From contig CAMLML010000039.1 of the NCBI GenBank assembly GCA_946481095.1, positions 1 to 38,037 on the forward strand: a stretch of DNA of 38,037 nt, in the 5' to 3' direction. Below are positions 22,005-38,037 of this stretch, piece by piece. The position numbers and the translations under genes were made by a program. Source of the stretch: an uncultured Cellvibrio sp. GTDB taxonomy: Bacteria > Pseudomonadota > Gammaproteobacteria > Pseudomonadales > Cellvibrionaceae. The first letter of the stretch is position 1; every line of letters starts with the position of its first letter. Below the pieces are notes generated by a model, which did no database searches, had not been told where the DNA came from, and saw only the letters and a list, made by a program, of their open reading frames with translations.

Positions 22005-25342
<3,338 letters not shown>

Positions 25343-25350
25343 CCTTAGTT

Positions 25351-25401
25351 AAACCCCGCAGCCGGTGGTAGAATGTCGGCGCTTTCCTGCTGCGGGGGTT
25401 T
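25351..25401 (+). promoter_or_regulatory. Long-range hairpin between fadA and the next gene
   Basis: AAACCCCGCAGC (25351-25362) pairs with GCTGCGGGGGTTT (25389-25401), a 12-bp stem with one extra G and a 26-nt loop. The 3' arm contains the G-rich stretch that serves as ribosome-binding site for ATG 25403, and the stem ends in T residues. It may be a fadA terminator, a translational lid or both. TAGAAT (25369-25374) inside the loop could be a -10 box. Confidence 0.55.
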
Positions 25402-25402
25402 T

Positions 25403-25657
25403 ATGTCTTCTTCTTTGTATGAGATTGTTGAGTTGCCTGATGGTGATGTAGTTTTGCGTCGTGTTGACGACGAAGACGCTGAGCCTCTCGTTAAAATTCA
25501 TTTTTCCAGTGAGTCGCTGGATTATCTGGGTGAGTCAAAATTTGCGATTGCCAGAGCTATGATTGAAGCCGGTATGGATGCAGCAAATGATGAAACACAG
25601 GAAGACAATCCAGACCCATCCTATGAAGATCAGTTGGAAGGTTACTTACTGCATTAA
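25403..25657 (+). CDS. Small conserved acidic protein of unknown function
   Basis: An 84-residue acidic protein (MSSSLYEIVELPDGDVVLRRVDDE..., many Asp and Glu) that I recall as a conserved hypothetical of Pseudomonas-like bacteria. I choose ATG 25403 over a start at 25373 because the G-rich stretch 25394-25398 is close upstream and the shorter form starts at the conserved LYEIVELPDGDVVLRR. The first 40 residues look like short strands, the middle (FAIARAMIEAGMDAA) like a helix, and the tail is disordered and acidic. No signal peptide, membrane segment or known domain. It may be cotranscribed with fadBA; its function cannot be stated. Confidence 0.8.
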   Translation: MSSSLYEIVELPDGDVVLRRVDDEDAEPLVKIHFSSESLDYLGESKFAIARAMIEAGMDAANDETQEDNPDPSYEDQLEGYLLH

Positions 25658-25814
25658 GAGTGCCTGCTTTTTTCTTTTCCGATTATTCCTTCATGGCAGT
25701 TATTTACACCTGTCCAATCAATTAAATTCAATAAATTGAATCCAATAAAAAGTTACCCCTTCAAAAATTAAGTTGATATTATCCCCGGCTATAAAAGTCG
25801 CAAGAGATACATTA

Positions 25815-26714
25815 ATGACTCATTTTTCTACTCTGGGCTTGATCGGCCATCTCAACAATGAACGGGCTGTTTATTCAATTAAGCGCTTGATTCAATTCTT
25901 GCAGAAACAACAAAAACATTTCGTGTTGGAAGCAGACACGGCAGAATTAATTGATGATAAGGCTCTGGTACAGGCCGCCGAACAAATTGCTGAAATTGAT
26001 ACTTTGGGGCAATTGTGTGATTTGGTTGTGGTAGTCGGGGGTGATGGAAGTTTGTTAAGAGCCGGGCGTGCTATGGCGCAGTATCAGGTTCCATTGTTGG
26101 GAATCAATCGTGGGCGTCTTGGGTTTTTGACCGATATTTTGCCTGACGATATTGAAAGCAAAGTGGAAGATGTTTTAAACGGAAAATATATTTCAGAAAA
26201 ACGTTTTTTGCTGGATATGAATGTCATGCGTGGCACTGACATTATTGCAACTGCATCAGCCATGAATGATGTGGTGCTGCATCCCGGTAAATTTGTGCAT
26301 ATGCTGCAATTTGAAATTTATGTTGATGGTGATTTCGTTACCAGCCAGCGGGCTGATGGTGTGATTGTGTCAACACCAACCGGGTCAACAGCCTATTCAC
26401 TCAGTGGCGGTGGTCCAATTTTACATCCCAAGCTGGATGCGATTGCATTAGTGCCGATGAACCCCCATACACTCAGCAGCCGTCCGATGGTGGTTCCAGG
26501 TGGATCGGAGATTCGTGTAGTGGTGGGTGAACATTCCCGTGCATTACCTATGGTGACTTGTGATGGTGCCACTCATGCAGAAGTGCAAACAGGTGATGCG
26601 ATAGTGATTAATAAAAAACCGCAATTGTTGGAATTGTTTCATCCTGAAGATTACAATTTTTTTGAGCGTTGTCGTTCCAAGTTGGGCTGGGGCGGTCATC
26701 TATTGGATAATTAA
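25815..26714 (+). CDS. nadK: NAD kinase
   Basis: Phosphorylates NAD+ to NADP+. The product has 299 residues from ATG 25815 (MTHFSTLGLIGHLNNERAV); the open frame reaches back to 25773, but that extension has no homology I recognise. The nucleotide-binding GGDGS motif lies at 75-79, with Asp77 as presumed catalytic residue. GINRGRLGFLTDI, NDVVLHPG, the RADGVIVSTPTGSTAYSLSGGGPI region (visible as ADGVIVSTPTGSTAYSL) and PHTLSSRPMVVP complete the family pattern. The yeaC-like gene follows after 2 nt, indicating cotranscription. Confidence 0.95.
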   Translation: MTHFSTLGLIGHLNNERAVYSIKRLIQFLQKQQKHFVLEADTAELIDDKALVQAAEQIAEIDTLGQLCDLVVVVGGDGSLLRAGRAMAQYQVPLLGINRGRLGFLTDILPDDIESKVEDVLNGKYISEKRFLLDMNVMRGTDIIATASAMNDVVLHPGKFVHMLQFEIYVDGDFVTSQRADGVIVSTPTGSTAYSLSGGGPILHPKLDAIALVPMNPHTLSSRPMVVPGGSEIRVVVGEHSRALPMVTCDGATHAEVQTGDAIVINKKPQLLELFHPEDYNFFERCRSKLGWGGHLLDN

Positions 26715-26716
26715 TT

Positions 26717-26989
26717 ATGATGAACCTGCAAGAATTATTATCAAGTTTAACGCCGGAAATTTATCAAAATTTAAAGCGTGCTGTGGAATTGGGAAAATGG
26801 CCAGATGGCAATCGTTTGTCATCAGAGCAACGACAACTATGTATGCAAGCCATGATTGCTTACGAGCACAAACATTTACCGCCGGAACAGCACACAGGTT
26901 ATATACCACCAGAGCCGCATACATTTTGTGGTGATGAAGATCATGACCATGATCATGCACAGAGTGAGAAGCCGATTAAGTGGGTGTGA
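26717..26989 (+). CDS. YeaC-like DUF1315 protein
   Basis: 90 residues of the DUF1315 family (E. coli YeaC). The N-terminal part (LLSSLTPEIYQNLKRAVELGKWPDGNRLSSEQRQLCMQAMIAYE, with the family signature ELGKWPDGNRL) is followed by the conserved HLPPEQHTGYIP and a histidine-aspartate-rich tail (GDEDHDHDHAQ) that could bind metal. ATG 26717 (or 26720) lies 2 nt after the nadK stop. No function is known; the nadK-yeaC pairing also occurs in Pseudomonas as I recall it. Confidence 0.85.
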   Translation: MMNLQELLSSLTPEIYQNLKRAVELGKWPDGNRLSSEQRQLCMQAMIAYEHKHLPPEQHTGYIPPEPHTFCGDEDHDHDHAQSEKPIKWV

Positions 26990-26995
26990 ATTAAA

Positions 26996-27034
26996 CACCC
27001 TCTCCCCAACCCTCTCCCATCAAGGGAGAGGGGG
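26996..27034 (+). repeat. C-rich palindromic repeat, copy A1
   Basis: CCCTCTCCC (27010-27018) pairs with GGGAGAGGG (27024-27032) around ATCAA, and a further CCCTCTCCCC half-copy precedes it at about 26998-27007. With A2 it forms an inverted pair between the yeaC-like gene and pepN. Confidence 0.8.
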
Positions 27035-27110
27035 CAGATTGAAGTTCTGAAGGAAAGAAAGGTAAATTCGAAAATTGTAAGATTAAGTAGTCGATCGAAC
27101 AAAACTGCGT

Positions 27111-27149
27111 CCCCTCTCCCCTTGTGGGAGAGGGGCAGGGGAGAGGGGT
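27111..27149 (-). repeat. C-rich palindromic repeat, copy A2, inverted relative to A1
   Basis: CCCCTCTCCC (27111-27120) pairs with GGGAGAGGGG (27126-27135) around CTTGT; the extra half-copy (GGGGAGAGGGG) lies on the 3' side, so the unit is reversed relative to A1. The 76 nt between A1 and A2 hold no gene. Confidence 0.8.
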
Positions 27150-27179
27150 AAGAAAATTTAAATTTTTTCAGGATTCAAT

Positions 27180-29876
27180 ATGACGGCCGTAGAACAAAAC
27201 TTACCAGTAAAAGATCAGCAACCGAAAACAATTTACCTGAAAGATTATCAGGTACCGGATTATTTAATTAAAACGACGGATTTGCGTTTTGAAATTACCG
27301 AAGGTGAAACTTTGGTGAGCGCTATGTTGCATTGCTACCGTAATCCGGCGGCGACAAAAAAAGTGAATCAGATCACCCTGCATGGAGCCGATCTGGAATT
27401 GGTGTCGATTGCGTTGAATGACAAAATTCTGAATATTGATGATTATGTTTTTGGCGAAGAAAGCCTAACAATTTTGAATACACCGGAAGAATTCAAGTTA
27501 ATCACTATCACCAAAATAAAACCCGAAACCAATACTTCGCTTGAAGGTTTGTATCGCTCCCGCACTATGTACTGCACTCAATGTGAGGCTGAAGGTTTTC
27601 GCAAGATCACTTACTATCTTGATCGGCCCGATGTGATGAGTGAATTTACTACTACTATAGTGGCTGATAAAAAATACCCCGTGCTCTTATCTAATGGTAA
27701 TTTAATTGATCAGGGTCAGCTGGAAAATAATCGCCATTATGCAACCTGGCATGATCCTTTCAAAAAACCGGCTTATTTATTTGCACTGGTTGCAGGTGAT
27801 TTGGCGCATATTGAAGACAAGTTCACCACGTGTTCTGGTCGTGATGTCACATTGAAAATCTTCGTTGAAGAAAAAGATCTGGATAAATGTGATCACGCCA
27901 TGACTTCTTTAAAAAATTCCATGCGTTGGGATGAAGAAGTTTATGGCCGCGAATATGATTTGAATATTTTTATGATTGTTGCCGTCGATGATTTCAATAT
28001 GGGAGCCATGGAAAATAAAGGATTGAATATTTTCAATACTTCATGTGTGTTGGCCAAACCTGAAACCACAACGGATACTGGATACCAACGAGTTGAAGGG
28101 GTAGTGGCGCACGAATATTTTCACAATTGGAGTGGTAATCGTGTGACCTGTCGCGACTGGTTTCAGTTAAGTTTGAAAGAAGGCTTCACTGTTTATCGCG
28201 ATTCGGAATTTTCTGCGGATATGGGTTCGAGAACCATTAAACGAGTGGAAGACGTGACCTTGCTGCGCACTTTGCAATTTGCCGAAGATGCAGGCCCTAT
28301 GGCACATCCGATTCGCCCTGAATCCTATATTGAAATTTCCAATTTTTATACCATGACTATTTACGAAAAAGGTGCTGAAGTGATTCGTATGTTGGCGAAT
28401 TTGCTTGGCAAGGAAAATTATCGTAAGGGCACGGATTTATATTTCGAACGTCACGATGGCCAGGCAGTCACAACAGAAGATTTTGTTGCTGCTTTGGCAG
28501 ATGCGTCAGGCCGCGATCTTACTCAATTTAAACGTTGGTATTCGCAAGCAGGCACTCCTCATCTGTATGTAACTGATCATTATGATGAAAATACTCAGGA
28601 ATATTCGTTAACTATCAAACAATCTTGTCCACCGACACCCGAATGCCAGCATAAATTACCTTTCCATATTCCAATTGCTATGGGGTTGTTGGGTGCAGCA
28701 GGTGATTTGCCTCTCTATCTAAAAAATGCAGAGCCTGATTTTGAAACTGCTGATAACACACATTTAGTATTGGAGTTAACCCAAGCGGAACAAACGTTTG
28801 TTTTTGAACGAGTGCAGGAAAAACCGGTTCCCAGTTTATCGCGCGGTTTTTCTGCGCCAGTCAAATTGCATTTTACTTATAGTCGTGAAGATTTAATTCA
28901 ACTTATGAGTCGTGACAGCGACGGCTTTAATCGCTGGGAAGCCAGTCAGCAAATTGGTTTGGATTTAATTGTAAACGCGATGCAAACTTATCGAAAACAA
29001 AAAACAATTTCTGAAATAAAAATCGATAAAGCGATTATTGCCGCGTATCGCAGCCTGTTACAAAACACCAGCCTTGATCAGGCTATGGTAGCCTACATGT
29101 TAACCCTGCCATCAGAAGCTTATTTAGGTGAATTATCGGATGTGGTGGATGTCGAAGCAATTCATTATGCACGCATGGCAGTGCGTAGAGCGATTGCGCG
29201 TGAATTGCGCGATGACTTATTAACCATCTATAAAAATTATAATCATCAACAAACCTATGAGGCAACGGCAAGTGCAATTGCTAAACGCAGTTTAAAAAAT
29301 GTTGCCTTGGGTTATCTAATGTTGCTCAATGAAGATTCCATCATTCAAAGTTGCGAGCAACAATACAAAACTGCCAATAACATGACAGACAAAGTTGCTG
29401 CATTAACCCAGTTAGTTAACTCCAATGCTACGCTTGCGCAAACAATTGCCGAACAATGTCTGCAAAATTTTTACGATACCTGGAAAAATGAATCTTTGGT
29501 TATCAATCAATGGTTAGTATTACAGGCATCTTGTGTATTGCCTGGTACTTTGGCGCGAGTCAAAAAATTATTGCAACATCCAGGTTACGATGGTCGCAAT
29601 CCCAATAAGATTCGTTCATTGATTGCCAGCTTTGCCAATAATGCAATTAATTTTCATGCGGGTGATGGAGATGGATATCAATTTTTGGCGAACCAAATTA
29701 TTCAGCTCAATACACAGAATCCGCAAATTGCCTCACGTTTATTGACCCAATTGACAAAATGGAAACGATATCCGGAAACGCGACAACAATTAATGAAAAA
29801 AGAATTGCTACGTATTTTAGCTGTGCCTGATTTGTCCAAGGATGTTTATGAGGTGGTGAGCAAGAGTTTGGTTTAG
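27180..29876 (+). CDS. pepN: Aminopeptidase N (alanyl aminopeptidase, M1 family)
   Basis: Zinc metallopeptidase that removes N-terminal residues from peptides in the cytoplasm, a late step of protein turnover. The 898-residue product is a normal length for bacterial PepN. Catalytic motifs: GAMEN in NMGAMENKGLNIF (exopeptidase specificity) and HEXXH-X18-E with His311, Glu312, His315 and Glu334. The N-terminal beta domain (1-190) has YCTQCEAEGFRKITYYLDRPDV, and the C-terminal half is the DUF3458/ARM-like helical region. C-rich palindromic repeats lie on both sides. ATG 27180 starts MTAVEQNLP, preceded by a weak AGGATTCAAT. Confidence 0.96.
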   Translation: MTAVEQNLPVKDQQPKTIYLKDYQVPDYLIKTTDLRFEITEGETLVSAMLHCYRNPAATKKVNQITLHGADLELVSIALNDKILNIDDYVFGEESLTILNTPEEFKLITITKIKPETNTSLEGLYRSRTMYCTQCEAEGFRKITYYLDRPDVMSEFTTTIVADKKYPVLLSNGNLIDQGQLENNRHYATWHDPFKKPAYLFALVAGDLAHIEDKFTTCSGRDVTLKIFVEEKDLDKCDHAMTSLKNSMRWDEEVYGREYDLNIFMIVAVDDFNMGAMENKGLNIFNTSCVLAKPETTTDTGYQRVEGVVAHEYFHNWSGNRVTCRDWFQLSLKEGFTVYRDSEFSADMGSRTIKRVEDVTLLRTLQFAEDAGPMAHPIRPESYIEISNFYTMTIYEKGAEVIRMLANLLGKENYRKGTDLYFERHDGQAVTTEDFVAALADASGRDLTQFKRWYSQAGTPHLYVTDHYDENTQEYSLTIKQSCPPTPECQHKLPFHIPIAMGLLGAAGDLPLYLKNAEPDFETADNTHLVLELTQAEQTFVFERVQEKPVPSLSRGFSAPVKLHFTYSREDLIQLMSRDSDGFNRWEASQQIGLDLIVNAMQTYRKQKTISEIKIDKAIIAAYRSLLQNTSLDQAMVAYMLTLPSEAYLGELSDVVDVEAIHYARMAVRRAIARELRDDLLTIYKNYNHQQTYEATASAIAKRSLKNVALGYLMLLNEDSIIQSCEQQYKTANNMTDKVAALTQLVNSNATLAQTIAEQCLQNFYDTWKNESLVINQWLVLQASCVLPGTLARVKKLLQHPGYDGRNPNKIRSLIASFANNAINFHAGDGDGYQFLANQIIQLNTQNPQIASRLLTQLTKWKRYPETRQQLMKKELLRILAVPDLSKDVYEVVSKSLV

Positions 29877-29881
29877 TAAAT

Positions 29882-29921
29882 CCCCCCTCTCCCTAACCCT
29901 CTCCCACAAGGGGAGAGGGGT
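29882..29921 (+). repeat. C-rich palindromic repeat, copy A3
   Basis: CCCTCTCCC (29897-29905) and GGGAGAGGG (29911-29919) form a 9-bp stem around ACAAG, preceded by the half-copy CCCCCTCTCCCTAA. Same orientation as A1. It begins 6 nt after the pepN stop. Confidence 0.8.
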
Positions 29922-29949
29922 AACAATTTCAATTCAAGAGAGCACGATC

Positions 29950-30381
29950 ATGCAAATTAACTGCCCCCATTGTTTTACAACCAACAGAATTGAAAAAGAA
30001 AAATTGGCTGACAATCCAATTTGTGGAAAATGCAAAAAACCAATCTTCTTTGGCAAGCCTGTGGAATTAAATCCCGGAAATGTATCGGCTTGTTTGGAAA
30101 AAAATGATATTCCGGTGATTGTTGATTGCTGGGCGCCATGGTGTGGGCCATGTCTATCATTTGCACCAATTTTTGAGCAGGCTGCAAAATTATTTGAACC
30201 TAATTTGCGTTTCGCCAAGCTGGATACACAAGCTGTACCGAGTATTGGTAATGCGTGGCATATTCAAAGTATTCCGACGCTGATTTTATTTAAAGGCGGT
30301 CGTGAAGTGCAGCGCATTTCTGGCGCCTTACCTATGCAACAATTGAAACAATGGATTCAACAATCCGGTGTGCTTTCTTAA
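29950..30381 (+). CDS. trxC: Thioredoxin 2
   Basis: Cytoplasmic disulfide reductase with a zinc-binding N-terminus, linked in E. coli to oxidative stress (OxyR regulon). The 143-residue product has two CXXC zinc pairs (Cys5/Cys8 and Cys25/Cys28), the active site WCGPC with Cys65 and Cys68, and the cis-proline loop SIPTLILFKGG. It lies 73 nt after pepN, behind repeat A3. ATG 29950 has GAGAGC upstream. Confidence 0.95.
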   Translation: MQINCPHCFTTNRIEKEKLADNPICGKCKKPIFFGKPVELNPGNVSACLEKNDIPVIVDCWAPWCGPCLSFAPIFEQAAKLFEPNLRFAKLDTQAVPSIGNAWHIQSIPTLILFKGGREVQRISGALPMQQLKQWIQQSGVLS

Positions 30382-30407
30382 TTGTATTATTAACAAGCGA
30401 GGTTTCT

Positions 30408-30851
30408 ATGAAATCAACTATTAACAAAGTGGTTGCTCTTTCAGTTGTATTCGGTCTTATTTTTCAGCTGGTTGGTTGTGGCACCATATTGCATCCGGAA
30501 AGAAAGGGGCAGGTGTCAGGGCAAATCGATCCCAAAATTGCGATTTTCGATGCAATTGGTTTGTTGTTCTTTTTTATTCCCGGTGTTATCGCTTTTGCAG
30601 TTGATTTTAGTAATGGCACAATTTATTTGCCTGGAGGTCGCAGAGCCAGTTTGACACCGGAGGAAATGCAGAACTTGCGTCAAGATGATAATCAAGTTGA
30701 TAAGGCAGAGTTAATTGGTTTGCTTCAGCAAAAAGGCTTGGTTGATAAAGGTATTACAGTGAACGAAGTTCAATTTAAAAAGTTGGATTCAATTGCACAG
30801 GTAGAAGATTATTTATCGGTTTCCGGCCAACAATTAGCTATGCGTGATTAA
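30408..30851 (+). CDS. Putative lipoprotein of unknown function
   Basis: 147 residues from ATG 30408 (GCGAGG about 6 nt upstream), 26 nt after trxC. The N-terminus is a lipoprotein signal peptide (KSTINKVVALSVVFGLIF then the lipobox LVGC, Cys about 23). The mature protein has GTILHPERKGQVSGQIDP, a hydrophobic segment DAIGLLFFFIPGVIAFAVDF and FSNGTIYLPGG, followed by a charged helical C-terminus (to MRD). This pattern occurs in conserved proteins of Pseudomonas-like bacteria sometimes misnamed polynucleotide phosphorylase; it has no such domain. Function unknown. Confidence 0.75.
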   Translation: MKSTINKVVALSVVFGLIFQLVGCGTILHPERKGQVSGQIDPKIAIFDAIGLLFFFIPGVIAFAVDFSNGTIYLPGGRRASLTPEEMQNLRQDDNQVDKAELIGLLQQKGLVDKGITVNEVQFKKLDSIAQVEDYLSVSGQQLAMRD

Positions 30852-30880
30852 CTTTCTACCTGCAATTCTTTTTAATCGAG

Positions 30881-32743
30881 TTAATACAAGGGCCGCAGTT
30901 GATTTTCAGTTGCGGCCTTTTGCATTTTTCCCCGTCGTAAATTACCCAAAGCTTCCCTGAGTACTTGTTTATCAAAATGATGGTTGTTGGCAGCAAACAA
31001 GCTGGCATCAAGTTGTGCCAACATTTCTTGTAATGACACAGAGTCCGCCTGAACAGCAACATCCTGCAAGCTTTGTATGGAATCGTTTTTCCAATAAAGT
31101 TTGGCCCATTCGATAATTGCCTGACGAAGTTCAATCAAGTTATTTTGCTGTAAACATTCTTTTACTTGATTCCAAGCATTGGTTTCGGATGCTATAGCAG
31201 CTTTTTCCAGTTCATTTTTTCGATGAATATAAGTATTAAAGCGTTGGCGTAAATTCCACCAGGCTAAAAAGAAAAATACAGACAATAAACTGCTGATGGC
31301 CAGTGCGATATAAATCCATACAGGTGTTTTGGTTTCAGTTTGAATATTATTGGAATCTATAACGATCGAAGGTTCGTTGGTTTGTTCTTTGGATTTTTCC
31401 ATTATTTGTTTTGCAGTTTCCACTATTTCATCCGCAGTTGGGCTGTGACTGTTGGTGCCTACAGTTAAATTAACAGCAGGTAAAGTTGCCACTTGGTATT
31501 CTTGTGTTTTTGTGTTCCACCATTCTATTCGTATTTCAGGTAGCGTATATTTTCCATCTTTGTTGGGAACTATGGCGGTAGTTTCTATGCGCGAACCTTG
31601 AATTCCATTTTTGGTTTTTTGATCATCTGTTTGTGCCTGATCCTGATAAAAGGTTAAACCATCAATAGAAGATGAAGTTAGGGGCGGAATTTGTGCAGCG
31701 GTTAAACCCTTGGCGGTAATCGTAATAGTGCGACTGATGGGTTCACCCACTTTCATATTGTCCAGACCTGCACTCCAATGTTCACTGATATGCAAATTTT
31801 CTGCGGGCAACCAATTGGTTTTATCTGCAGGTGCAGCATTGACGGTTAATGTTTTCTCTTCTGTCATCAGCCGTAAAATATTATTACTGCCCGACATTCT
31901 GCTCCAGATGTCGCCATCGTCTATGGCTACCTGATAACGTAAAGCAGGAATAGTGAGTGTTCCGCTTTTTAATGGAAATATGGCAAATCGTTTTTCAACA
32001 ACCAAAGCCGGTTGATTATTGATAGTTGTTTTATAGTTTTGTTCATCCAGTTCGGTAACAAATGTATCGGGAATTGAGAGTGGATCCAATTGTGCAGCAG
32101 TGAGGCTGACATTAGTGATTAATCTCACTGTAAAAATAACCTGTTCCTGTACGAATAAATTGTTTTTGTCGGTGAGTACTTCAACACTCACCGGATCACT
32201 ACCTGAAGCTTTGAATTGTGTAGATTGTTTTTCAACAGTAATTTCAATTGCATCACTGATATTGCCATTGATGTCAAACGAAGGAATTAACAGCTTGCCA
32301 ATTTTGCGAGGCGCCAGCATCAATTTCCATTGAGTGTAGGATTCAGTTCGGCCATTGACTATAGACATGCTGCGGCCACTTTGCGTGTTTAAAATTTCAA
32401 AATCTTTTTCCAGCTGGGAATAATCGGGCGTCGCATTGGTTTGTGGATCGTGACGTAATGTCAGAGTTAATGTTTCAGAAATGCCGAGTGTGTCCCGATC
32501 GACGCTGGCGGTTAGGCTATCTGCGAAAGTTGGTGTGGCGATAAATAACAAACTTACCAGATAAAAAAGAAAAAATTTTATTGCAACAAAATCCAATATT
32601 GGATTTTGAATTGTGGTTTTTGACCCCCTCCTAACCTCCCCCTTGCCAGGGGAAGGGACTGTCCCCTCCCCTGGCAAGGGGGAGGTTAGGAGGGGGTCCA
32701 ATATTCTCGCAAATTCACATAAAACTTTCATTTTCATTCTCAT
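30881..32743 (-). CDS. batD: BatD-like membrane-anchored protein
   Basis: 620 residues from ATG 32743, which shares one base (TGATG) with the batB/C stop. BatD-type proteins are exported, with beta-sandwich domains and a C-terminal membrane anchor, and work with the Bat von Willebrand proteins in envelope functions. Seen: an unusual 52-residue N-extension (MRMKMKVLCEFARIL, then residues 16-41 encoded by a palindromic repeat), hydrophobic segment about 53-70 with a signal-peptidase-like TPTFA-D junction at 74/75, sandwich domains to about 440 (SVDRDTLGISETLTLTLRHD), a transmembrane span (PVWIYIALAISSLLSVFFFL) and a helical cytoplasmic tail. Whether translation really starts at 32743 or nearer to TTG codon 50 is uncertain. 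Confidence 0.82.
   Translation of the reverse strand: MRMKMKVLCEFARILDPLLTSPLPGEGTVPSPGKGEVRRGSKTTIQNPILDFVAIKFFLFYLVSLLFIATPTFADSLTASVDRDTLGISETLTLTLRHDPQTNATPDYSQLEKDFEILNTQSGRSMSIVNGRTESYTQWKLMLAPRKIGKLLIPSFDINGNISDAIEITVEKQSTQFKASGSDPVSVEVLTDKNNLFVQEQVIFTVRLITNVSLTAAQLDPLSIPDTFVTELDEQNYKTTINNQPALVVEKRFAIFPLKSGTLTIPALRYQVAIDDGDIWSRMSGSNNILRLMTEEKTLTVNAAPADKTNWLPAENLHISEHWSAGLDNMKVGEPISRTITITAKGLTAAQIPPLTSSSIDGLTFYQDQAQTDDQKTKNGIQGSRIETTAIVPNKDGKYTLPEIRIEWWNTKTQEYQVATLPAVNLTVGTNSHSPTADEIVETAKQIMEKSKEQTNEPSIVIDSNNIQTETKTPVWIYIALAISSLLSVFFFLAWWNLRQRFNTYIHRKNELEKAAIASETNAWNQVKECLQQNNLIELRQAIIEWAKLYWKNDSIQSLQDVAVQADSVSLQEMLAQLDASLFAANNHHFDKQVLREALGNLRRGKMQKAATENQLRPLY
30888..30921 (+). terminator. 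Terminator of the lipoprotein gene, overlapping the batD 3' end
   Basis: AAGGGCCGCA (30888-30897) pairs with TGCGGCCTTT (30911-30920), 10 bp with one G-U wobble, around a 13-nt loop, followed by T residues. It lies inside the batD coding end, converging from the plus-strand side. Confidence 0.55.
32587..32608. repeat. 22-bp perfect palindrome in the batD signal-peptide region
   Basis: CAAAATCCAAT followed directly by its reverse complement ATTGGATTTTG, with no loop. It lies 13 nt from the batD palindromic repeat and encodes residues IQNPILDF in batD. It could be a protein-binding site or a relic of the repeat insertion. Confidence 0.75.
32622..32698. repeat. Palindromic repeat B1, in frame in batD
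   Basis: Two 37-nt arms (32622-32658 and 32662-32698) are inverted copies with a single mismatch, around CTG. Within batD the minus strand reads DPLLTSPLPGEGTVPSPGKG and then EVRRGS. The plus strand gives almost the same peptide because of the symmetry. Confidence 0.9.
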
Positions 32744-34707
32744 CACAATCGTTGGTCAGCTTCGTTGTCCGGGGATTCCCAGGTGCCTTTCATTTTTTCG
32801 TATTGTTGTTTTCTGAATTCATTTTCGAATTTCCTGCGCAGCAGTCCACTCGGATCATCTGGAACTCTGCGTAACCATTGCTCCAGATTTTTTCGTTCTT
32901 CTTCGGTTAAACCATCTTTTTGCAATTCCGCCAGGGCTTTTGCTTCAGCTTCTTTTTGTGCATCACTTTTTTGTTCTTCCGATTGGGCAGACGAAGTTTG
33001 TGATACTTGATTCATTTGCGAACTTGCCGAACTGGATGTCTGTGCATCCATTGCAGAAGGATTAGCTTGTGATGAGTTGGTAGCATCATCCTGCATAGAC
33101 TGATTCTGCGCAGAGGAATCTTGCCCACTGGATGAATTCTGTTGATTCTGTTGCTGTGAATCCTGATTTTTTTGATCCTGATCCTGTTGTGATTGATCTT
33201 GTTGGTTTTGTTGTTGATCCTGACTTTTTTGATCTTGTGAATCTTTGTTTTGCTGGTTTTTATCCTGTTGGTTCTGATCCTGATTCTGTTGTTGATTGTT
33301 TTTTTGCTCCTGTTGTTTTTTAAGTGCTTCCTCAACAATTTTTCGATTCTTTTGAGCATCTTCCAAATTGGCGTCTATGGACAAGGCTTTGTCATAGGCT
33401 GTAATGGCTTCTTTAAGTTGCCCTGATTTTGCCAATGCGTTTCCCCGATTGTAGTGAGCAGTAGCGGTATCCTGATTTGCAAATTGTTTGGCTGCTTCTG
33501 CAAAATTTCCCGCACGATATTCGGCACTGGCTTTCCACTCGGGTTGGGTAAATTGTTTTGCGGCTTCATCTGCTTTGTCAGCTTGCAATTTTTCATAAGC
33601 TTGTTGATCTTTATTTTTCCAAAGATCATCCCAGCCTGCTGCATGAGCTTGTTCGGGTGAAAACAATATAAAAGGTGTCAGAAAAATAACGGCCAGCACT
33701 CCGCGACGAAATACATATAAGATTACAGGCAACAACAATAAAACCAACCAGTGACCTTCATCTGCCCATTGATCAAAAGTGCGGTTGCTGATTTTTTCTT
33801 CTTCGTTGTTATTTTTAAGATCCATTTTAATATTCATCAGTGATGTAAAAGTTTTCATATCATCAACATCACTGGAAAGTGTTTTGTAACGGCCACGATT
33901 TTCAAGTGCAAATTCACTTAAAGACGCAGCGTCCAGAAAACTGGTGACAATATCATTGGATTTATCACGCAGGAATCCGCCGTTGCGCGATGGAATAGGT
34001 GCTGGGTCTTTGCCACCTACACCCAATATGGATAAACGAATAGCTGTTTCATCCTGAAGGTTTTTATTGATAGTTTGTTGTGCATCAGGTGCAACCCCAT
34101 CGGTAATTAATAACAAGTCGCCCTGATTTAATCCTGCATCTTTCAAGAGTTGAACTGCACGTGCGACGGCGGCCTCTGTATTGCTACCTTGTGCGGGCAT
34201 AAGATTTGGGCTGAGCATGGGTAACAAATTACTGATGGTTTTTGAATCCTGGGTCAGTGGTGTGACAACATGTGCATTGGCACCGTAAACCAGAAGTGCG
34301 GTTTGGCCATCCTGCCTTTCGCGTAATAGATCCGCAATTTTCAGACGTGCACGAACAATACGTGAAGGTTTTATATCTTCGGTCAGCATTGAAGGCGATA
34401 AATCCAACATAATAACTAATGCATTGTTATTTTTTTCGACGGCGACTGGCAGTTTTTTCCAGCTTGGCCCTGCCAGCGCAATCGCTGCAATAATCCAGGC
34501 TAGCATCAGTATGATTAAATTGCCTGGTGATCTCCTGATGGTTTTACCTTCAAGTAAAAAGGGTAATAGTTCGGCTGAAATTAAATCTTGCCATTGACCG
34601 GATTTTTTTTGTTTTCGCCACAGCAGCACAATTACTGGCAGCAACAATAAAATCGCCCATAACCAGAGTGGCCGAATGAAATGGAAATTTTCAATAAATG
34701 AATCCAT
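32743..34707 (-). CDS. batB: BatB/BatC-like von Willebrand A and TPR protein
   Basis: 654 residues, apparently a fusion of BatB (vWA) and BatC (TPR). ATG 34707 is chosen because GAGG lies 8 nt upstream; an in-frame TTG at 34710 is the alternative. Membrane spans at about 12-30 and 62-80; vWA domain about 90-300 with MIDAS DLSPS (102-106) and TDGVA later; two more hydrophobic segments (VLLLLPVILYVF, VIFLTPFILF) at about 310-350; TPR-like helices at about 365-450 (AYEKLQADKADEAAKQF, HYNRGNALAKSGQLKEAITAYDKAL). Then an Asn/Gln/Asp-rich, low-complexity stretch (about 463-590) and a charged C-terminus. Repeats of QQNQQD are compositionally unlike the rest. It overlaps batD by one base. Confidence 0.85.
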   Translation of the reverse strand: MDSFIENFHFIRPLWLWAILLLLPVIVLLWRKQKKSGQWQDLISAELLPFLLEGKTIRRSPGNLIILMLAWIIAAIALAGPSWKKLPVAVEKNNNALVIMLDLSPSMLTEDIKPSRIVRARLKIADLLRERQDGQTALLVYGANAHVVTPLTQDSKTISNLLPMLSPNLMPAQGSNTEAAVARAVQLLKDAGLNQGDLLLITDGVAPDAQQTINKNLQDETAIRLSILGVGGKDPAPIPSRNGGFLRDKSNDIVTSFLDAASLSEFALENRGRYKTLSSDVDDMKTFTSLMNIKMDLKNNNEEEKISNRTFDQWADEGHWLVLLLLPVILYVFRRGVLAVIFLTPFILFSPEQAHAAGWDDLWKNKDQQAYEKLQADKADEAAKQFTQPEWKASAEYRAGNFAEAAKQFANQDTATAHYNRGNALAKSGQLKEAITAYDKALSIDANLEDAQKNRKIVEEALKKQQEQKNNQQQNQDQNQQDKNQQNKDSQDQKSQDQQQNQQDQSQQDQDQKNQDSQQQNQQNSSSGQDSSAQNQSMQDDATNSSQANPSAMDAQTSSSASSQMNQVSQTSSAQSEEQKSDAQKEAEAKALAELQKDGLTEEERKNLEQWLRRVPDDPSGLLRRKFENEFRKQQYEKMKGTWESPDNEADQRL

Positions 34708-34711
34708 CAAT

Positions 34712-35665
34712 TCATCCTCTTGGGAAAACGGGTTTTATATTAAAAACCTGGGCTAGTGTTAGAATTAAACTGAGCAGCAGTGCAAACGCCAGTGGCCAAT
34801 AAAAAAGAGTTTTCACCGGACGAAAAGTTTCTTCATCGGATTCACTGGGTTCAAGTTTGTCCAACTGATGATGGATGTTATCCAGCTCCTGCATACTGCG
34901 TGCACGAAAGTAAGCGCCGCCGGTTTTTTCAGCCATATTGTGCATGGCTTGTGCATCCACTTCCTGATCGTAAGGCGTAAATGCAATGGTGTAGATTTTT
35001 GTTTTTGCAGTTACTGCCAAATCTGTTGCTTGTTCCGGTGTGATGTCACCAGCCGTATTTTGTCCATCAGTTAATAAAATGATCACACGTTTATTGTCGG
35101 GATAATCTTTTAATCGTTTAATTCCCAAAGCCACTGCATCACCAATTGCGGTGGCTTCACCCGCCAATCCAACTTCACTTTCCAATAACATTTGTTGCAC
35201 TGTGTTAGTGTCAAAAGTGAGTGGCGCTTGTAGATAAGCATTGGTGCCAAATAATATTAAACCGAGTCTGTCCGACGTGCGGCGAGCTACAAAATCACCG
35301 ATGACTTTTTTGACCGCAATTAATCGCGTGACTCTATATTGCTGATAAACCATATCTGGTTCGCGCATACTGCCAGAGATATCGACGGCTAATAATAAAT
35401 CCCGTCCGGAGCTGGGCATTTTGACTGTATCACCAATCCATTGTGGATTGGCCGCTGCACAAAGTGCTGCAATCCAGATCAACCAGAGCAACAGATTTTT
35501 TAATGAACTTTTAGCGGATGCTGCCAGATTTTGTTGTAATGCCTGTGCTTGTTGGAAAAAAGGTACGCGCAACGCAGCCTGGATTTGCTCGCGCGGTTTT
35601 AATCGCGCGATTAAAAATGGCAAAGGCAATAATAGAAATAACCAGGGAAATGAAAATTCAAACAT
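34712..35665 (-). CDS. batA: BatA-like von Willebrand A domain protein
   Basis: 317 residues. Two N-terminal hydrophobic helices (FSFPWLFLLLPLPFLIA and LLLWLIWIAALCAAA), a vWA domain at about 85-285 with MIDAS residues DISGS (95-99) and TDGQN, and a C-terminal membrane span (TLFYWPLAFALLLSLILTLA). The vWA domain faces the periplasm in models of the family and binds a metal-dependent partner. ATG 35665 overlaps the DUF4381 gene by 8 nt; the stop is 4 nt before batB. The pair with batB suggests heteromeric assembly. Confidence 0.87.
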   Translation of the reverse strand: MFEFSFPWLFLLLPLPFLIARLKPREQIQAALRVPFFQQAQALQQNLAASAKSSLKNLLLWLIWIAALCAAANPQWIGDTVKMPSSGRDLLLAVDISGSMREPDMVYQQYRVTRLIAVKKVIGDFVARRTSDRLGLILFGTNAYLQAPLTFDTNTVQQMLLESEVGLAGEATAIGDAVALGIKRLKDYPDNKRVIILLTDGQNTAGDITPEQATDLAVTAKTKIYTIAFTPYDQEVDAQAMHNMAEKTGGAYFRARSMQELDNIHHQLDKLEPSESDEETFRPVKTLFYWPLAFALLLSLILTLAQVFNIKPVFPRG

Positions 35666-36167
35666 GAGAATTTTTCCCCGATTTTTTCTGCCATTGATTC
35701 TTGTGTTTCTTGATCCATTCTTCTGTCAGCGTGATTAATGCATCAATTTTTACATCGGGAGATTTTTGGTATTGTCCGACAATCAAAGCCTGACCCAATT
35801 CGCTATTAAATGGCGTTGTGAGTTTGGGGCAGTTGTCATCCAGCCAATTCAACCAGTCCTGTCCTTTAATGCTGGGATTAAAATTTTTGGGCTGTGCACT
35901 GAGTGCAACACGTTTTAATAACAGGCTTAGTGCTTGCAAAACAGTTGCAGTGTCTTGTGTTGATTCCAGTTTGATTTTTTGTAATTCAATTAATGCTTTG
36001 TGACGATAACGATCACGTTGTTTTCGTTTATGCCAAATGAAAACCAGCAGGCCAATTAACACAATCAACCCCAACAAAATCCACCAGCCAGGAGCCAACG
36101 GCCAATAACCGGGTGCTTCGGGGAGATGAATGTCGGCTAGAGGTAAATCGGAGAAATTATTTTCCAT
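35658..36167 (-). CDS. DUF4381 single-span membrane protein
   Basis: 169 residues. A short N-terminal segment (DLPLADIHLPEAPGYWPLAPGWW) precedes a membrane span (ILLGLIVLIGLLVFIW, about 30-46) and a positively charged stretch HKRKQRDRYRHKA, so the rest (about 50-169, with PSIKGQDWLNWLDDN) is cytoplasmic. DUF4381 genes usually sit between DUF58 and batA in MoxR clusters, as here. ATG 36167 shares one base with the stop of the DUF58 gene, with GGAG just upstream. Its function is unknown beyond the cluster. Confidence 0.85.
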   Translation of the reverse strand: MENNFSDLPLADIHLPEAPGYWPLAPGWWILLGLIVLIGLLVFIWHKRKQRDRYRHKALIELQKIKLESTQDTATVLQALSLLLKRVALSAQPKNFNPSIKGQDWLNWLDDNCPKLTTPFNSELGQALIVGQYQKSPDVKIDALITLTEEWIKKHKNQWQKKSGKNSHV

Positions 36168-37183
36168 TATTTAACTCCTTCCATTGAATCACTAGACCCC
36201 ACCCTAGCCCTCCCCTTGCCAGGGGAGGGGACAGTTCCTCCCTCAGGTAAGGGGGAGGTTAGGAGGGCACGATCCGAATTACTAAAATACTGCTGCATGG
36301 AAAGAGTTAAATCATCTGCAGTAGAAAAATTGAGAAGTGCTATGCCCATGGATTGACATAAAGTGTGTAATTGTTGCTGCTTTTCAACAAAATTCTGATG
36401 AAATGCTTGCTGAAATTTTTTGTCGTTGGTCGGCAATAAAATTTGTTGCGATCCATTTGATATTGAAAGATTGTTTGAACTGATAAGGAGTGATTCCAAT
36501 GGATCATGTACTTGCAACAAGCTCAGATCGGTATGACGCGTGAGCTGATAAATACTGGCGTGATCTTTTTCATCCAAATCGTGAAAGTCGCTGATAATAA
36601 AAACAGCGCTGCCGGGTTTGGCAATTCGTCGCGCATCATTAATTAATGGATTAATAGTTGTTGCTGATGTTTGACCCAATGGTGAAACCAGTTTTTGATT
36701 GAAGTCATGAATTTGATGAATCAATTCCAATACAGAATGTTTGCTGCGGCGCGCTTTGATATCGCGCTGTTCCTGATCACCTAACACCAATCCACCAATT
36801 CGATCACCGCGATTTAATGCGGCCCATGCCAGAGTTGCAGCAATTTCAGCAGCGAGCACAGATTTAAAACAATGACGGCTGCCAAAAAAAAGCGGGGAGC
36901 GTTGATCGATTAAAATTAACACCGGCCGCTCACGTTCTTCCCGATACACTTTGGTGTGAGTGACTTGCGTGCGCGCTGTGACTCGCCAATCAATATTGCG
37001 TATGTCGTCTCCTGCCTGATACAAGCGCACTTCTTCAAAATCCATTCCCCTGCCGCGAAAGTGAGTGCGCTCATTACCTGCCAACAAGCTGCGCGCACGT
37101 CGCTTGGGAAATAAAGACAAGCCCTGCGCAACAAACCGGGTTTGTAAAAGTTGGTCGAGTTGTGTGTAGGCACCGCTGGACAT
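36167..37183 (-). CDS. DUF58-domain protein of the MoxR cluster
   Basis: 338 residues without a membrane span. The DUF58 signature lies at about 50-110 (GRGMDFEEVRLYQAGDDIRNIDWRVTAR and THTKVYREERERPVLILIDQRSPLFFGSR, short motifs DIRNIDWRVTAR and VYREERERPV). A vWA-like core follows (LAAEIAATLAWAAL, FIISDFHDLDEKDH). The C-terminal tail, about residues 306-329 (LLTSPLPEGGTVPSPGKG), is encoded by a palindromic repeat related to the one in batD, so the natural end was probably near residue 304. Start ATG 37183 lies 21 nt after moxR. Proteins of this type act with MoxR; the exact role is unknown. Confidence 0.87.
   Translation of the reverse strand: MSSGAYTQLDQLLQTRFVAQGLSLFPKRRARSLLAGNERTHFRGRGMDFEEVRLYQAGDDIRNIDWRVTARTQVTHTKVYREERERPVLILIDQRSPLFFGSRHCFKSVLAAEIAATLAWAALNRGDRIGGLVLGDQEQRDIKARRSKHSVLELIHQIHDFNQKLVSPLGQTSATTINPLINDARRIAKPGSAVFIISDFHDLDEKDHASIYQLTRHTDLSLLQVHDPLESLLISSNNLSISNGSQQILLPTNDKKFQQAFHQNFVEKQQQLHTLCQSMGIALLNFSTADDLTLSMQQYFSNSDRALLTSPLPEGGTVPSPGKGRARVGSSDSMEGVK
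36195..36267. repeat. Palindromic repeat B2, in the DUF58 3' end
   Basis: The left arm (36195-36231) is clearly related to B1 (TAGCCCTCCCCTTGCCAGGG against the B1 arm); the right arm (about 36236-36267) has diverged. Read on the minus strand it gives LLTSPLPEGGTVPSPGKG, the same frame and almost the same peptide as B1. Confidence 0.8.
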
Positions 37184-37204
37184 GAGGCTCTCGCTGATGA
37201 ATGG

Positions 37205-38037
37205 TTAAACCAGAGGCACTGTTGCCAGCAGGCGTTCGATGACCTGTTGGGTATTGATACCCTTGGCCTCTGCTTCAAATCGCAAAATAAGACGATGACG
37301 CAAAACATCAAAGGCTATGGCCTGAACATCATCCGGGGTTACATAATCGCGACCTTCCAACCAGGCATGCGCACGCGCGCAACGATCCAATGCAATAGTG
37401 GCTCGCGGGCTGGCGCCGAACTCGATCAGGCTGGCCAGCTCCTTGTTGTATTGCGCGGGGCGTCGGGTTGCGTTGATTAAATGCACCAGATAATTTTCAA
37501 CCGTGTCAGCCATATGCAATCCCAGTACTTCCTGACGTGCAGCCAAAATACTGGATTCACTGATAACCGCAGGTGCTTCAACAGATTGATACGAGGCTTC
37601 CTGACGAGCCAAATGCAGGATTCGTTTTTCAGCTTCCAGGCTTGGGTAATCCACTACCACATGCAACAAAAAGCGATCCAGCTGTGCTTCGGGCAAAGGG
37701 TAGGTACCTTCCTGTTCTATCGGGTTTTGGGTGGCCATCACCATAAATAATTTCGGCAAAGGATAGGTTTTGCTGCCCACACTGACTTGTCTTTCCGCCA
37801 TAGCTTCCAGCAGCGCAGACTGTACTTTTGCCGGTGCGCGGTTGATCTCATCCGCCAACACCAGATTATGAAATATAGGGCCGGGTTGAAATTCGAACTG
37901 CCCTGATTGGGGGCGGTAAATGTCGGTTCCTGTGACATCGGCTGGTAGCAAATCGGGGGTAAATTGCACGCGGTGGAATTCCGCTTCTATGCCTTGCGAC
38001 AGAGTTTTGATGGCTTTGGTTTTTGCCAGGCCGGGCG
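37205..38037 (-). CDS. moxR: MoxR-family AAA+ ATPase, N-terminus cut by window end
   Basis: 277 residues are visible, the N-terminus lying outside. The first bases encode PGLAKT, the end of the Walker A loop (GxPGxAKT). Then Walker B in NLVLADEINRAPAKVQSALLEAM, sensor region MVMATQNPIEQEGTYPLPEAQLDRF and the C-terminal helical lid (EFGASPRATIALDRCARAHAWLEGRDYVTPDDVQAIA, seen as short motifs GASPRATIALDRCARA and VTPDDVQAIA). MoxR ATPases are chaperone-like and work with vWA proteins to activate or insert cofactors into complexes. The gene leads a minus-strand operon with DUF58, DUF4381 and Bat proteins. The remaining N-terminal part lies upstream of the window. Confidence 0.93.
   Translation of the reverse strand, partial: PGLAKTKAIKTLSQGIEAEFHRVQFTPDLLPADVTGTDIYRPQSGQFEFQPGPIFHNLVLADEINRAPAKVQSALLEAMAERQVSVGSKTYPLPKLFMVMATQNPIEQEGTYPLPEAQLDRFLLHVVVDYPSLEAEKRILHLARQEASYQSVEAPAVISESSILAARQEVLGLHMADTVENYLVHLINATRRPAQYNKELASLIEFGASPRATIALDRCARAHAWLEGRDYVTPDDVQAIAFDVLRHRLILRFEAEAKGINTQQVIERLLATVPLV

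Follow-up and report, generated by a model that had tools for sequence, protein, structure and literature searches.

The locus described here raises the question of why a near-perfect palindrome should lie within the reading frame of batD, ahead of the hydrophobic core of the predicted signal peptide, and whether it is translated there. It is found in a window of 38,037 nt, by which we mean the whole stretch of DNA that was analysed, and belongs to an operon in which Pfam recognises a MoxR-type AAA protein, a DUF58 protein, a DUF4381 protein, two VWA proteins and BatD; the gene names batA and batB are presumed to apply. The batD gene (30881..32746, minus strand; BatD family protein, Pfam PF13584 and PF25607) has four candidate starts, GTG 32746, ATG 32743, ATG 32737 and ATG 32731, and the stop codon of batB (32743..34710, minus strand; VWA and TPR domains) overlaps ATG 32743 by one base. 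Elsewhere in batB, a low-complexity, tandem-like stretch (33146-33317) encodes a Q/N/D-rich linker (QQNQDQ...).

A hairpin scan confirmed the near-perfect 77-nt palindrome that a sequence-only reading of this DNA had proposed. It occupies 32622-32698 on the minus strand, with two 37-nt arms that differ by one mismatch and enclose a CTG loop, and the arms reach 41 nt once a second mismatch is allowed. With at most one mismatch and a loop of at most 10 nt, hairpin arms elsewhere in the window reach 16 nt at most, and the longest arms in ten first-order resampled windows are 11–13 nt. The G+C content of the element is 69%, against 43% for the window. Counted from GTG 32746 the element corresponds to batD codons 17-42, while counting from ATG 32743 gives residues 16-41, as had been noted. 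The batD frame is free of stops across the element, whereas the element's two other frames hold a stop, on both strands; stops also occur in both other frames of the batD leader. This copy of the element was found in no contig other than that of the window (P0001, a one-member cluster).

Each half of the element is made up of a pyrimidine stem, a loop, a purine stem, TTA and a mirror purine strand. Judged by this pattern, the element is a head-to-head pair of G/C-rich intrastrand-triplex motifs (TM), both halves matching the class II G/C-rich motif that the accessible part of PMC4666352 describes as TMECO type A. A finder for pyrimidine stem, loop of 1–6 nt, purine stem, loop of 1–6 nt and mirror purine strand (stem of 8 nt, at most one mismatch) recognised both halves, TM unit 1 at 32624..32656 on the minus strand (8-nt stem, one mismatch, loops of 6 and 3 nt) and TM unit 2 at 32665..32696 on the plus strand (8-nt stem, one mismatch, loops of 5 and 3 nt), each with TTA as the second loop; the two units lie on opposite strands, 8 nt apart. 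TM units were found at four loci of the window (38 kb), against none in 20 resampled windows. The batD copy and a copy in the DUF58 gene are inside ORFs, and the other two loci are intergenic: two units in inverted orientation, 26998-27031 (minus strand) and 27113-27147 (plus strand), upstream of an ORF at 27180, and a unit with a TTA loop, 29885..29918 (minus strand), directly past an ORF ending at 29876. The long ORF 27180-29876 is flanked by these three intergenic units, and the unit at 29885-29918 is very like the type A motif of E. coli.

As far as the available text of PMC4666352 goes, the likeness to TMECO extends from the build of the unit (a pyrimidine and a purine stem joined by a short loop, then TTA and the mirror purine strand) to the occurrence of inverted pairs and, over the four loci of the window, of dispersed copies; TM loci are described as unstable between strains, being more rearranged there than controls. 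According to the same text, TMECO are always intergenic in E. coli MG1655 and in five cases form inverted pairs, which join type A to type B, whereas the batD pair joins type A to type A and lies inside coding sequence. The TM identity stands, because an intergenic position characterises the copies in E. coli and not the motif as such.

The sequence-only reading called the element "REP-like". Like GTAG/CGTC REPs, which the accessible portion of PMC3733652 describes as short palindromes, often head-to-head dimers and in some cases within ORFs (more at N-termini than at C-termini), the element is a paired palindrome inside a gene. Identity with a GTAG/CGTC REP is ruled out, however, since the element is a TM pair and contains neither the GTAG nor the CGTC tetranucleotide, its ends reading GACC...GGTC. 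A search of 24000-38037 against Rfam gave no match at the gathering score.

Beyond the element, the rest of the batD leader (SKTTIQNPILDF..., 32588..32621, minus strand) resembles, by eye and in a MAFFT alignment, part of a second repeat found in relatives, namely its right half (NPMLGFAPQPT), the corresponding stretch in the window being KTTIQNPILDF. A 20-nt perfect palindrome, AAAATCCAATATTGGATTTT, lies within this part of the leader at 32588-32607, and so does TTG 32596, the start codon of a rival reading discussed below. The hydrophobic core of the signal peptide is placed by hydropathy and pattern scan at codons 55-69 (32540..32584, minus strand), which supports the earlier suggestion that the element comes between the N-terminus and the hydrophobic segment of the signal. 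A simple scan predicts the features of a Sec signal, namely a positive n-region, which is unusually long, then the hydrophobic core and an A-x-A-like site, here T-F-A, after which, at codon 75, cleavage is likely. As positive residues, core and T-F-A end are all kept, export of BatD is probably preserved, and the altered export that had been suggested as a possibility is not supported. On both sides of the insert, in phase, stands the sequence AATATTGGA (32705-32697 and 32600-32592); it is not claimed as a target-site duplication, because 64 of 2000 random placements share at least 9 nt (a few draws near the copies were skipped yet counted within the 2000).

Protein searches scored 7990 candidates for BatD and 7999 for DUF58, taken by most shared words, and the best 120 were listed. 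The BatD lineage consists of P0001 (the window) to P0011, the fragment P0012 being left out of all counts, and the mature parts of the ten other proteins are 61–95% identical to that of the window. A member of the lineage, P0007, belongs to a cluster whose longest contig has 2,510,054 bases. A repeat peptide precedes the hydrophobic core in 10 of the 11 BatD proteins, or 9 of 10 when only the relatives of the window are counted; P0011 has no recognised repeat peptide in its leader.

The repeats found at this one site differ. The TM pair is read in frame 0 in P0001, P0003, P0005, P0006 and P0009, with the left half only in P0010; the copy in P0003 is shorter by some 10 codons, and the TM peptide of P0006 contains additional sequence. 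A frame-2 reading, PPPNLPL...LRRGGLGW, is present in P0002 and P0004, and NLPLRRGGLGW in P0008; on the evidence of the predicted proteins, these peptides look like the same repeat family. Frame 2 of the window's own element gives PPPNLPLARG and then a stop in the right half, at the position where the frame-2 proteins show LGW, as expected with a change from TTA to TTG or CTG, and CTG is found in the DNA of a relative (L126). The second repeat, VGWG...NPMLGFAPQPT, occurs whole or as a half in P0003–P0008 and P0010. It is palindromic as well (VGWG.NPN...NPMLGFAPQPT), and is partly nested with the TM pair in the leader. Six of the 11 proteins begin with Met-Lys-hydrophobic-Leu (MKVL, MKFL, MKLL). 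The frames of relatives rest on predicted proteins, and the repeat peptide motifs were defined after the sequences had been viewed. Leader lengths that differ by whole codons were dropped as evidence because only predicted proteins were compared, and these allow nothing else. An alignment of relatives, which had been proposed as a check, does not place the element at the same site with the same peptide throughout: in P0002 the mature part is 95% identical to that of the window and the leader peptide is different. To judge by these proteins, the repeats at the BatD site turn over quickly within the lineage.

Of several possible explanations, we favour one in which a TM pair was inserted at the batB-batD junction, is read in frame and is removed with the signal peptide, in-frame copies surviving at tight gene junctions; we give this reading a probability of just under 0.6. 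A dispersed G/C-rich TM pair would have inserted at the junction, as repeats favour gene ends, and an operon without spacers would offer no room; since batB and batD overlap there, the repeat would end up within batD, behind the first codons and ahead of the hydrophobic core. Copies that shift the frame or bear a stop would be lost, while in-frame copies would persist where the peptide matters least, and the one stop-free frame of three in the batD copy is indeed that of batD. Translation would begin at the ATG beside the batB stop and run through the repeat, giving an n-region some 50 residues long, at the end of which KGEVRRGSK would add positive charge, with K and R residues contributed by the repeat half beside the core. 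Signal peptidase would take off the repeat peptide together with the signal, so that mature BatD would be unchanged and the insertion might be neutral. Further copies would be kept at other tight junctions, in the DUF58 tail and in a DUF3570 signal peptide.

Repeat peptides occur in three unrelated protein families, BatD, DUF58 and DUF3570. The second in-frame copy of the window (36195..36267, minus strand; 82% identical to the batD copy) sits in the DUF58 tail (gene 36167..37183, minus strand; Pfam PF01882), just ahead of a stop codon that shares one base with the DUF4381 start. As a palindrome this copy is degraded (67% self-complementary in the best register); it is absent from the list of the window's strong hairpins, and contains one recognised TM unit, 36197-36229, with CTA as the second loop. 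A further protein cluster (P0121, ENA source; 99% identical) has the copy too. Among the matches listed, repeat peptides are found at the DUF58 tail in 7 of 12 relatives and are missing from the other 5, and P0128 and P0132 look, from their sequences, like the filled and the empty state of the site. A DUF58 search of genome contigs gave a best identity of 59% among the matches listed. A mis-called start cannot explain the DUF58 copy, because it is situated near the C-terminus.

The third family was found in a protein search with the BatD element region, which yielded 10 candidates and two matches, BatD itself and P0241. The latter is a DUF3570 protein (Pfam) that begins with MKK, followed by LDPLLTSPLPGGGTVPSPGKGRARVGS, the same peptide as in the BatD element, and then by a hydrophobic core; within the nearest family of comparison genomes, its closest relatives share 67–71% identity with it. 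Among DUF3570 relatives, the upstream gene ends 43–91 nt before the mature part in 14 of 15 Cellvibrionaceae loci, the fifteenth (L112) being masked at that place, and the junction of this copy is taken as tight for that reason. The in-frame copies in BatD, DUF58 and DUF3570 are thus all at tight gene junctions, partly by inference from relatives. At the same DUF3570-start junction, loci L111 and L114 of Cellvibrio-type genomes have the peptides SFARMRES and SFPRTRES, which we take to be reminiscent of a reading of another common bacterial repeat.

We consider it probable that translation of batD runs through the element. In 10 of 11 proteins of the lineage the predicted leader before SVDR has at least 45 residues; among the other BatD proteins of the best 120 listed this holds for 4 of 108 (Fisher p ~1e-10 with kinship ignored). 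In 9 of the 10 repeat-bearing proteins there is an upstream Met with a frame open through the repeat, while the predicted start of P0007 is inside the second repeat. Anti-SD pairing amounts to -5.2 kcal/mol for both ATG 32737 and ATG 32731. The element has an AGGAGG of its own (pairing -15.6), 15 nt away from ATT 32611; as a start, this codon is weakened by the rarity of ATT and by the position of the AGGAGG site inside the hairpin.

A rival explanation, possible but in our view rather unlikely, is that the element sits in an enlarged batB-batD spacer that is open by chance, and that translation starts downstream, the start codon being TTG 32596 in the window and the ATG within NPMLGF in several relatives. 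Cellvibrio-type batD genes, which have a short signal peptide, start anywhere from overlapping the batB stop to 130 nt past it (28 rows, some genomes twice), and the ancestral junction may therefore have had a spacer. A start at TTG 32596 would give a leader of 30 residues before SVDR, near the 34–37 of Cellvibrio, but its anti-SD pairing of -0.4 kcal/mol is not Shine-Dalgarno-like. The start predicted for P0007, at MLGFAPQPT, agrees with this explanation; against it, P0002 and P0009 have no Met from the repeat peptide to the core, and in P0004 and P0008 the repeat peptide comes after the last Met before the core (GTG or TTG starts being possible in all four, for which proteins only were compared). 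Gene callers extend open frames upstream, and the 4 of 108 other BatD proteins do show long leaders; REPs at annotated N-termini are treated in the accessible part of PMC3733652, with the warning that such repeats are often extragenic. The upstream start region is alike among the relatives, however, and the copy in DUF58 would be left unexplained. A downstream start, also raised by the sequence-only reading, is thus conceivable but disfavoured, with less support than the upstream one.

Element-like DNA is present in 15 of the 144 genomes of the nearest comparison family; a search of these 144 with the element peptide, confined to the peptide of that one frame, matched 2 of the genomes at E <= 0.01, with no match in a long stop-free frame. 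Ten sister-genus loci with element-like DNA were examined, of which L130 was not centred on the match and the nine others were read. In L132 and L135 the repeat is in an open frame, yet ahead of the true start of a gene, of FlgE/F/G type and for T2SS protein G, which speaks for an extragenic repeat in batD too. The open frame has no Pfam match in L126 and L133, the repeat precedes a GARS gene in L127, it is at the ends of the TauE and carbamoyl-phosphate synthase small-chain genes in L129 and L134, and it falls in no frame of at least 90 codons in L128 and L131. Extragenic open-frame repeats therefore do occur in sister genera, but there, unlike in the window, the start beyond the repeat is evident. 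The TM-like repeats of L132 and L135 are possible raw material for an N-terminal extension. The tyrosine transposase Y1_Tnp, present in 115 of the 144 genomes, was ruled out as a marker of carriers, because 13 of the 15 carriers have it and so do 102 of the 129 other genomes. DNA of a closely related batD was not found among the 144 genomes, where the best BatD is 50% identical; P0007 as query had no match at E <= 1e-165 in 390 genomes of the order (a search run with no positive control), and viral contigs gave nothing by BatD or by the exact 26-nt core of the element.

A more far-reaching version of our preferred reading, in which some signal peptides of this lineage have, as their n-region, a landing pad that has been rebuilt repeatedly from at least two palindromic repeat families in two frames, with the repeats supplying charge, appears doubtful to us; if it were true, signal peptides would be exchanged in front of a mature protein that remains about 95% identical.

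That the hairpin was selected for regulation, its RNA shielding the batB mRNA or lowering batD translation and its coding being incidental, is very improbable: the predicted stability (-87.2 kcal/mol for the element, and a z-score of -10.8 for the region relative to 100 shuffles), the position at an operon junction, and the accounts of REPs as transcribed and near gene ends in the available parts of PMC3733652 and PMC12306157, with roles of this sort proposed for intercistronic REPs, all fit it, but conservation, as read from the sequences, gives no support to a regulation of batB or batD by the hairpin (the copy is shortened in P0003, no recognised repeat exists in P0011, and the DUF58 copy is degraded), the accessible text of PMC4666352 has no sign of a regulatory role for TM in E. 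coli, and translation of the leader would itself unfold the hairpin.

In-frame palindromes are already known from RPE, REPs and enterobacterial repeats. RPE, as described in the available parts of PMC2229807 and PMC3733652, are palindromic repeats that lie in frame within unrelated protein genes and are missing in relatives. The comparison with Rickettsia RPE drawn earlier is supported in this sense, as the in-frame repeats in BatD, DUF58 and DUF3570 are likewise absent in relatives (from predicted proteins, and with RPE known by description). RPE are 105–146 bp long and belong to Rickettsia, whereas the batD element has 77 nt, comes from a Cellvibrionaceae relative and has the sequence of a TM pair. 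By BatD and DUF58 the closest comparison genomes are Cellvibrio-like. Another parallel is RU-2, a 168-bp enterobacterial repeat that, in the accounts accessible in PMC2759123 and PMC2229807, is read within the ORF YPO1552 and forms part of a predicted signal peptide. In both cases part of a predicted signal peptide comes from a small mobile repeat, but RU-2 supplies the signal part of a putative new protein, while the batD repeat lengthens the n-region of an established family. In our searches of the open-access literature we found no coding TM pairs, no signal peptide described as a recurrent landing site, and no printed match to the repeat peptide motifs; the DNA motifs occur in print in six papers, one of them relevant here.

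Coding palindromes are best known from Rickettsia, and batD would, if the insertion reading is true, be a case outside that genus which comes with a reason for its position. A motif described as always intergenic in E. coli is found here inside genes, with a fast turnover between close relatives, and gene starts next to such repeats need experimental verification. Cleaved signal peptides and loose protein tails would be the places where a coding insertion does least harm in compact operons.
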